Below the pieces are notes generated by a model. That model saw only the letters and a program-made list of their open reading frames with translations, was not told the origin of the DNA and did no database searches. From assembly GCA_029262755.1 (NCBI GenBank), contig JAJCYU010000306.1:1-35922 (forward strand): DNA of 35,922 nt, in the 5' to 3' direction. The position numbers and the translations under genes were made by a program. Within the stretch, counting starts at the first letter, position 1. The number at the start of each line of letters is the position of its first letter. Shown here piece after piece: positions 33,650-34,299 of this stretch. This DNA is from Anaerolineae bacterium (GTDB taxonomy: Bacteria; Chloroflexota; Anaerolineae; Epilineales; Epilineaceae).

Positions 33650-33684
33650 TGGGTGAGATATCCCTTCGCGAGCAGGAGCGCGCC

Positions 33685-34299
33685 ATGGTCAAATTCACAT
33701 TCGACAAGAGTTTCTTCTACGTTCTGTCCGGCCTGCTGGCCGTGCTGGTCGTGGGCGGCATCGGCTGGTTCGTCAGCCGCGGCGGCAGCCAGGTTGCGAC
33801 CTCACCCGTCGCGCCGGCCGCGCAGCCGTCCGTGCCGGACACGAACATCCCCGCACCGGTCGACGCGGGCGGCGCAACGGGTGCCGAGGCGCCCATCAAC
33901 GTCGCCCCACCGCCCGCGCCCGTCGCGGACGGTTCGCTTGACTCTATTCTGGCCGGCGGCGAGATCACGCCGGAGCAGGACGCGCTCGTCAGCCGGCTGG
34001 GTCCGGCCGATGCGCTCGAGAAGGTCCAGTCGCCGGATACGGTATGGGTTGACACCCGTACGGCGGAAGAGTTCGCCACGAGCCATATTCCGGGCGCGAT
34101 CTCGATCCCGGCCTATAGCCAGGACGCGGCGTTGGCGGAGCTGCCCAAGGATAAAGAAATCATCCTCTACTGTGCCTGACCTAACGAGCACACGAGTGCC
34201 CGTGCGGCACACATCCTGACGGCGATGGGCTTCGAGAACGTGACGACGGTATTCGGCGGTTGGGGCGCGTGGCAGTCCTACGGCTACCCCGTCGAGTAA
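33685..34299 (+). CDS. Membrane-anchored rhodanese-like protein with predicted selenocysteine at residue 165
   Basis: 204 residues if TGA at 34177-34179 is read as selenocysteine. Residues 5-32 form one membrane anchor (FFYVLSGLLAVLVVGGIGWF). A Pro/Ala linker (about 35-80) leads to a rhodanese domain: VWVDTRTAEEFATSHIPGA, then LYCA followed by the TGA codon, PNEHTSARAAHIL, and GGWGAW with GYPVE at the end. Many homologues have Y-C-x-C-P-N-E here, so the TGA replaces the second redox Cys, giving C163-A-U165. Reading TGA as stop would cut the domain in its active loop, 40 codons short of the TAA. UGA ends many other genes in this window, so general reassignment is unlikely. The start has CAGGAG 6 nt upstream. 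Likely a sulfur- or selenium-transferring or thiol redox enzyme on the outer face of the membrane. Confidence 0.85.
34177..34210 (+). promoter_or_regulatory. UGA codon and SECIS-like stem-loop
   Basis: After the TGA (34177-34179), GTGCC (34196-34200) pairs with GGCAC (34206-34210) around the loop CGTGC. The apical loop starts 21 nt after the TGA and has G as its second base; bacterial SECIS elements are expected about 16-37 nt downstream with a G in the first two loop positions. An overlapping alternative is GCAC (34188-34191) / GTGC (34196-34199). The stem is short and its energy was not computed. Confidence 0.6.

Follow-up and report, generated by a model that had tools for sequence, protein, structure and literature searches.

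A predicted membrane-anchored selenoprotein with a C-x-U rhodanese domain in a draft Anaerolineae genome

Rhodanese-like selenoproteins with a C-x-U motif have already been catalogued. The accessible text of PMC13188914 lists a "Rhodanese-like domain-containing protein form 3" with a CxU motif and one selenocysteine (Sec), corresponding to the NCBIfam model NF041203, and credits this form to Zhang and Gladyshev 2005. The same kind of protein is catalogued as "COG0607 form 2", also CxU, in the accessible part of PMC9312934. In addition, rhodanese-like Sec proteins are listed in the portions available of the Sargasso Sea and GOS surveys (PMC1088965 and PMC2398784) and of PMC5029168, and three selenoprotein families were counted in Chloroflexi according to the available part of PMC1794560. 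As far as the main texts of PMC13188914 and PMC9312934 are accessible, the string "chloroflex" is absent from them, and the available parts of both mention no membrane anchor for form 3 or COG0607 form 2.

The window, i.e., the whole stretch of DNA analyzed here (35,922 nt), corresponds to contig 306 in the 5.06-Mb draft assembly of an Anaerolineae bacterium (428 contigs, 84% complete). The following features were assigned to the gene under study:

33674-33678, plus strand: AGGAG, Shine-Dalgarno-like sequence, 6 nt 5' of the ATG (from the sequence)
33685-34299, plus strand: predicted selenoprotein coding sequence, 204 aa with Sec165 (ATG ... TGA165 ... TAA)
33706-33780, plus strand: single hydrophobic helix (signal anchor), codons 8-32 (AlphaFold2 helix 8-32)
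34006-34278, plus strand: rhodanese domain, Pfam PF00581, residues 108-198 (Pfam score, fold matches to solved rhodaneses)
34171-34173, plus strand: TGT encoding Cys163, which opens the C-x-U motif; nine U-x-U relatives have TGA here
34177-34179, plus strand: TGA, predicted from its conservation to be read as selenocysteine 165
34196-34200, plus strand: 5' arm of the putative SECIS stem, GTGCC, starting 16 nt after the TGA
34201-34205, plus strand: apical loop of the putative SECIS, CGTGC, whose second base is G and third base T
34206-34210, plus strand: 3' arm of the putative SECIS stem, GGCAC

The reading frame with the internal TGA is real. It reads ...EIILYCA-TGA-PNEHTSARAAHILTAMGFENVTTVFGGWGAWQSYGYPVE-TAA, with LYCAU at residues 161-165 and codon 165 as the sole in-frame TGA. 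The original prediction had given the same frame, including ILYCA before the TGA and the terminal TAA; its 40 codons after the TGA are 39 sense codons and the TAA. A 35-codon open frame is weak evidence on its own, having a probability of about 0.48 by chance in such GC-rich sequence. The codons past the TGA extend the rhodanese domain across it, and 25 of 37 residues after the TGA are conserved in comparison with the nearest relative, versus 38 of 60 in the 60 codons before it. Among the 22 ORFs picked as genes in the window, TGA is the stop in 10, TAG in 11 and TAA in 1; thus, UGA also serves as a normal stop in this DNA, as had been stated for at least ten other genes.

According to the Pfam analysis with the TGA read as Cys, PF00581 is the sole Pfam domain of the protein (67.9 bits, gathering cut-off 22.2). 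Structures were modeled with Cys in place of Sec and compared at the level of secondary-structure strings. The AlphaFold2 model (mean pLDDT 83.5; 93 for residues 161-170) shows a low-confidence Pro/Ala-rich linker between helix 8-32 and the rhodanese domain. The signal anchor noted at the outset agrees with this helix and with the TM-like segment found in 28 of 29 proteins of the family (own included; hydropathy cut); a lipobox was detected in 4 of the 29 by a regular expression. In the topology scoring, which took in 29 of 34 rows, the N-terminal flank of the helix was more positively charged than the C-terminal one in 23 of 29 proteins, equal in 5, including that of the window, and less positive in 1. 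These flank charges suggest an N-in, C-out orientation with the rhodanese domain probably outside the cytoplasmic membrane, as originally proposed, and they do so through the relatives more than through the window protein itself, where the comparison is a draw.

The model places a strand at residues 158-162 and a helix from residue 166. In a control, a modeled rhodanese with the canonical CRTGNRS motif, the strand occupies residues 95-99, Cys100 follows and the helix starts at residue 104. From these differing strand and helix limits, the canonical four-residue loop (CRTG in the control) seems to be replaced in the model by Cys163-Ala-Sec165 at the start of the helix. The equivalent of the canonical rhodanese Cys is U165 when counted from the helix and C163 when counted from the strand. 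Alignments with PDB entries are split in the same way: phmmer places U165 without gaps on the canonical Cys of 6mxv, whose two domains differ in which residue aligns with that Cys, and C163 is aligned in the case of 3tp9. The original prediction placed the UGA at the active-site Cys; more precisely, it falls on the latter Cys of a C-x-C pair, and the canonical Cys corresponds to U165 or C163 depending on the alignment.

Similar genes were found in 66 of 100 genomes (own included) at E <= 1e-8; the 21 best-scoring places all contained an in-frame TGA, and the C/U-x-U gene type was counted in 26 of the 100. Five of 34 TGA-bearing rows were dropped: G048 and G065b belong to a different type of Sec rhodanese, the TGA of G041 lies outside the domain, and G091 and G064 differ in spacing. 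In the remaining 29 aligned sequences (set A, window included), column 165 is TGA in 29 of 29, and R125 and A175 are invariant. A further scan, with one genome per species, used the DNA pattern Y-C-[AT]-TGA-P-x-E-x-x-S-A-[RS]-[AV], which imposes the TGA and the motif and leaves the remaining domain free. It matched at least 118 stretches; among the matches listed, 80 loci with 81 ORFs were read. All 81 of these listed ORFs are rhodaneses by eye and continue past the TGA, a few ending with the locus, and two, too short after the TGA, were dropped from set B. Residues D59 and G128, which the pattern does not fix, are invariant in an alignment of 76 of the pattern-found ORFs among the matches listed. 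The record titles among these matches name Chloroflexi/Anaerolineae, Acidobacteria, Rokuibacteriota, Deltaproteobacteria/Desulfo-, Nitrospirae, Myxococcota and a few others. A gene of this kind is also present in the record titled Desulfofustis glycolicus DSM 9705 (L143). The two best matches among the named loci fetched belong to Chloroflexi (46-50% identity).

Cysteine counterparts were found as well. The plasmid-borne homologues fetched read C-x-C-P in 8 of 8 cases, and the genome's own paralogue reads YCECP, which bears out the original statement that homologues carry Cys at the TGA position. Since the Cys homologues read C-x-C, the predicted Sec takes the place of the second Cys of this pair. 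Together with seven Chloroflexota paralogues, chosen by the C-x-C motif, the eight plasmid sequences made up the 15 C-x-C homologues used below.

Decoding of UGA as Sec by SelB bound to a SECIS element is an established pathway, and the components sought for it, namely selA, selB, selD and tRNA-Sec, were all detected in the same genome. The scores were 507.7 bits for selA, 344.5 bits for selB, 368.1 bits for selD and 70.3 bits for tRNA-Sec (Rfam cut-off 47), the last being identified by ARAGORN as tRNA-SeC with the anticodon TCA. The selD gene has its own in-frame TGA in the motif SSCAGU (positions 1531-1533 of L054), followed by its own GC-rich stem-loop. Co-occurrence with selA was considered as evidence for Sec and set aside: selA occurs in almost the whole class, so that its presence carries no information, and it does not track the gene. 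Of 100 genomes, 87 have a selA above the cut-off, and full selA was absent in 3 of the 26 genomes with the C/U-x-U gene type. A second set comprised 45 genomes, each with a TGA-bearing match (genes were read in part of them); selA was found in 43, and it was not found in G348 (95% complete, with a U-x-U gene) and G122 (88% complete).

The rules for bacterial SECIS elements in the accessible text of PMC13188914 are a loop of 3-9 nt, a stem of 4-16 bp, G in loop position 1 or 2, a distance of 16-37 nt from the UGA to the loop and an MFE of at most -7.5. The element of the window has a loop of 5 nt, a stem of 5 bp, G in position 2 and a distance of 21 nt. Compared with the published limit of -7.5, the 15-nt five-pair core gives an MFE of -6.4 kcal/mol and the core extended by flanks to 19 nt gives -7.9; by energy the element is modest. 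A search of Rfam gave no match to the SECIS region. The SECIS directly after the UGA, as originally expected, is supported by the 5-bp stem at 34196-34210, which fits these rules and can be formed in 29 of 29 aligned sequences (window included).

This pairing was compared with synonymous recoding based on the codon usage of each gene. In set A, the complete stem can form in all 29 genes, against an expectation of 1.6; in set B, it can form in 69 of 79 genes among the matches listed, against an expectation of 3.7. The genetic code leaves the last base of the loop codon free for Arg (CGN) and Gly, yet T or G stands there in all 108 genes (sets A and B, the latter among the matches listed). In the alignment named A2, 145 of 145 cells are paired, and in two pairs both partners have changed (C-G to U-A); the signal is lost when the partner is shifted, and RNAalifold predicts the same helix. 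Further genes came from 40 fetched stretches, and the counts cover 14 TGA genes and 12 thiol-less genes, the latter lacking both Cys and Sec. Excluded from these counts were ordinary single-Cys rhodaneses, L224, whose TGA is oddly placed, L220, whose TGA precedes the domain, and L203 and L205, which are thiol-less but read YGDS, outside the regular expression used. All five pairs were present in 14 of 14 of the TGA genes, some with new compensating changes. Complete stems were found in 0 of 12 thiol-less relatives (at most 2 pairs) and in 0 of 15 C-x-C homologues (0 to 4 pairs each). Thus, the stem is complete in 43 of 43 TGA genes from the protein search versus 0 of 27 relatives without UGA.

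When the window RNA is folded straight after the TGA, in 40 or 51 nt, another fold has the minimum free energy, and the probability of the stem in the 51 nt is about 0.10. When nt 11-40 or 15-33 are folded, the SECIS stem is the MFE fold. At least four of the five pairs are held in the 51-nt fold in 23 of 29 genes of set A and in 56 of 79 of set B among the matches listed. This may indicate that the stem forms while the ribosome covers the first ten or so nucleotides after the UGA.

The conserved TGA, the presence of the machinery and a stem that tracks the UGA make it very probable (about 0.95) that the gene encodes a selenoprotein, as first predicted; the competing fold lowers this estimate a little. 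It is very unlikely that the UGA is recoded in another way, by reassignment to Cys or Trp or by insertion of Cys through the Sec pathway at low selenium. Cys homologues exist, and other organisms are known to misinsert Cys by way of the Sec pathway; however, UGA terminates many ORFs here, a tRNA-Sec above the Rfam cut-off and a SECIS are both present, and the in-frame TGA lies at thiol positions in the members aligned. Nor does a genuine stop, leaving a truncated or pseudogene product of 164 residues, appear at all probable: although UGA ends 10 of the 22 picked ORFs and the stem is not the MFE fold of the window's own 51 nt, the TGA is kept in the 29 aligned sequences and in 81 of 81 named ORFs (among the matches listed) with conserved codons behind it, synonymous codon choice and paired changes in the two arms maintain the stem, and the Sec machinery is complete. 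A sequencing or assembly error turning TGC or TGT into TGA, one base away in a draft genome, is negligible in view of the same TGA in dozens of other genomes and the stem that accompanies it.

Two kinds of relatives deviate from C-x-U. In nine of them (L034, L037, L064 and L191-L196), spread over seven family codes, TGA occupies both positions, giving UTU in eight and UAU in one, and all five stem pairs are present in 9 of 9. The first UGA of these genes lies 27 nt from the loop, still within the published range of 16-37 nt, so one SECIS could serve both UGAs. A tree with Sec letters masked and Cys letters unmasked gave 6 label changes for U-x-U, 2 of them forced by starred branches; with 112 columns and 140 rows, it resolves little. 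No U-x-U rhodanese was found in the literature search or in the accessible parts of the catalogues PMC13188914 and PMC9312934.

The other kind consists of fourteen membrane-anchored relatives from one family (L197-L210) that read YGDA, YGDS or YTDQ. Homologues with neither Cys nor Sec at this position, named in the original prediction as a finding that would speak against it, thus exist in one branch. The 12 of them tested also have no complete SECIS stem, and for this reason they are no argument against Sec in the window gene. Loss of selA as the origin of the thiol-less relatives was rejected: selA is kept in 13 of 14 genomes in which the gene was read and in 20 of 21 genomes of this family that were searched.

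As for the genomic context, the ORFs read in G000, G001 and G002 showed no gene neighbor common to these three genomes. A function based on operon structure was consequently dropped; with so little resemblance between the three neighborhoods, no partner or substrate is indicated. Ten members, most of them picked for length, were scanned for fused domains. The domains found were VTT (3), Na/H exchanger (2) and, once each, trypsin-like, multihaem cytochrome, DsbA-like Thioredoxin_4 and zinc-ribbon. At L036 (931-2064, minus strand), one ORF contains a C-x-U rhodanese and a DsbA-like domain, the latter near NCBIfam NF041057 (Rcas_1661 thioredoxin-like (seleno)lipoprotein; 157 bits, cut-off 190). 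The C-x-U rhodanese lies behind Na/H exchanger domains at L088 and L145, and likewise, as guessed by eye, at L061. At L142 (543-2240, minus strand), it is followed by multihaem cytochrome domains in one frame.

The original prediction had left the choice between a sulfur/selenium transferase and a redox enzyme. The C-x-U motif, the fusions and the rebuilt loop lead us to favor, at roughly even odds, an extracytoplasmic selenol/thiol redox enzyme that would act on persulfide or disulfide sulfur. In such a mechanism, the selenolate of Sec165 would attack the sulfane sulfur or disulfide of an extracytoplasmic substrate, the Se-S adduct would be resolved by Cys163 to a selenenylsulfide, and a thioredoxin- or DsbA-like partner would reduce the latter again. 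The protein would thus use its rhodanese scaffold to work as a selenol/thiol oxidoreductase or persulfide reductase, and not as a classical thiosulfate:cyanide sulfurtransferase.

The main alternative, a selenoprotein that is nevertheless a true sulfur or selenium transferase, in which Sec165 would carry persulfide-like S or Se to an acceptor with Cys163 as a relay, seems less likely. The rhodanese fold, the ungapped alignment of U165 with the canonical Cys of one of the two 6mxv domains and a genome with SelD and Sec synthesis are consistent with it. They are opposed by the modeled three-residue C-A-U loop, which replaces the canonical four with an earlier start of the helix, and by the fusions to DsbA-like and cytochrome domains; moreover, C-x-U pairs are typical of redox couples.

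A wider form of the redox reading may be put forward tentatively. The Sec-rhodaneses could constitute a broad extracytoplasmic selenol/disulfide redox system, spread over Chloroflexota and further phyla, with one strongly conserved SECIS, in which the partner Cys has repeatedly become Sec and a diselenide or selenenylsulfide pair does the work. If one SECIS serves the second UGA, U-x-U could arise repeatedly by one base change. Such a working pair, if true, would be a chemistry for which no description was found for rhodaneses in the accessible parts of the literature consulted. The natural series of C-x-C, C-x-U, U-x-U and neither on one scaffold raises the question of what the second selenium buys.

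There are also consequences for annotation. A gene finder that treats UGA as a stop cuts such genes at residue 164, with loss of the Sec and about one third of the domain, and TGA-bearing members are widespread: among the matches listed, they are present in drafts whose titles include Chloroflexi, Acidobacteria, Rokuibacteriota and Deltaproteobacteria. The SECIS stem separates the TGA genes so completely from the relatives without UGA that it can be used as a clean annotation marker.

Among solved structures, the single-domain rhodaneses GlpE (1gmx), PspE (2jtq) and YgaP (5hbo) share the domain and the fold with the window protein. To our knowledge, they have one catalytic Cys and no C-x-U or C-x-C pair, and in models the loop length of the single-domain type, represented by a Chloroflexota control of the CRSGNRS type, differs from that of the window protein. 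The C-x-C-P rhodaneses, some of which are DedA/VTT fusions by annotation, have Cys at both positions, whereas they have no UGA and a complete SECIS stem in 0 of 8. A second TGA-bearing rhodanese type, VTYU...HPG...SERAA, was observed at L060 (436-825, minus strand) and L062 (437-760, minus strand); its Sec, right after the strand, is at the canonical Cys place, and these genes perhaps correspond to the published UxxG/UxxS forms. The rhodanese at L224 (genome G165) has its in-frame TGA at an odd place, YCTGAT-TGA-GSS, and is not of the C-x-U type. Another Sec rhodanese with, by its name, a redox module is TsoB, the rhodanese/DsbD fusion-like double selenoprotein (NF045694), which has the motif UxxxxU in the accessible text of PMC13188914, whereas the window gene contains a single TGA. 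The window protein reached 32.5 bits with NF045694 (cut-off 805).

The closest described system remains NF041203, rhodanese_LYCAU ("rhodanese-related (seleno)protein"). This was the top model for the window protein, with 89.5 bits against 48.6 for the next, and the two share the C-x-U motif, LYCAU and the rhodanese domain. However, the score is below the curated cut-off of 115, and the window protein differs in having a signal anchor and a linker before the domain. At E <= 2.3e-33, estimated to equal 115 bits, NF041203 was reached by 0 of 29 sequences of alignment A1 and by 15 of the 76 named ORFs scanned with NCBIfam (of 81 among the matches listed). The catalogued form 3 and COG0607 form 2 are, like the window protein, predicted rhodaneses with C-x-U. 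A signal-anchored C-x-U rhodanese had originally been regarded as unfamiliar; the C-x-U rhodaneses themselves are not new, being present in NF041203 and in the accessible parts of PMC13188914 and PMC9312934, and what stands is the anchored, divergent character. Since such rhodaneses are in NCBIfam and in reviews and the window protein falls below the NF041203 cut-off, the window gene is a divergent, membrane-anchored form of the already catalogued C-x-U rhodaneses.
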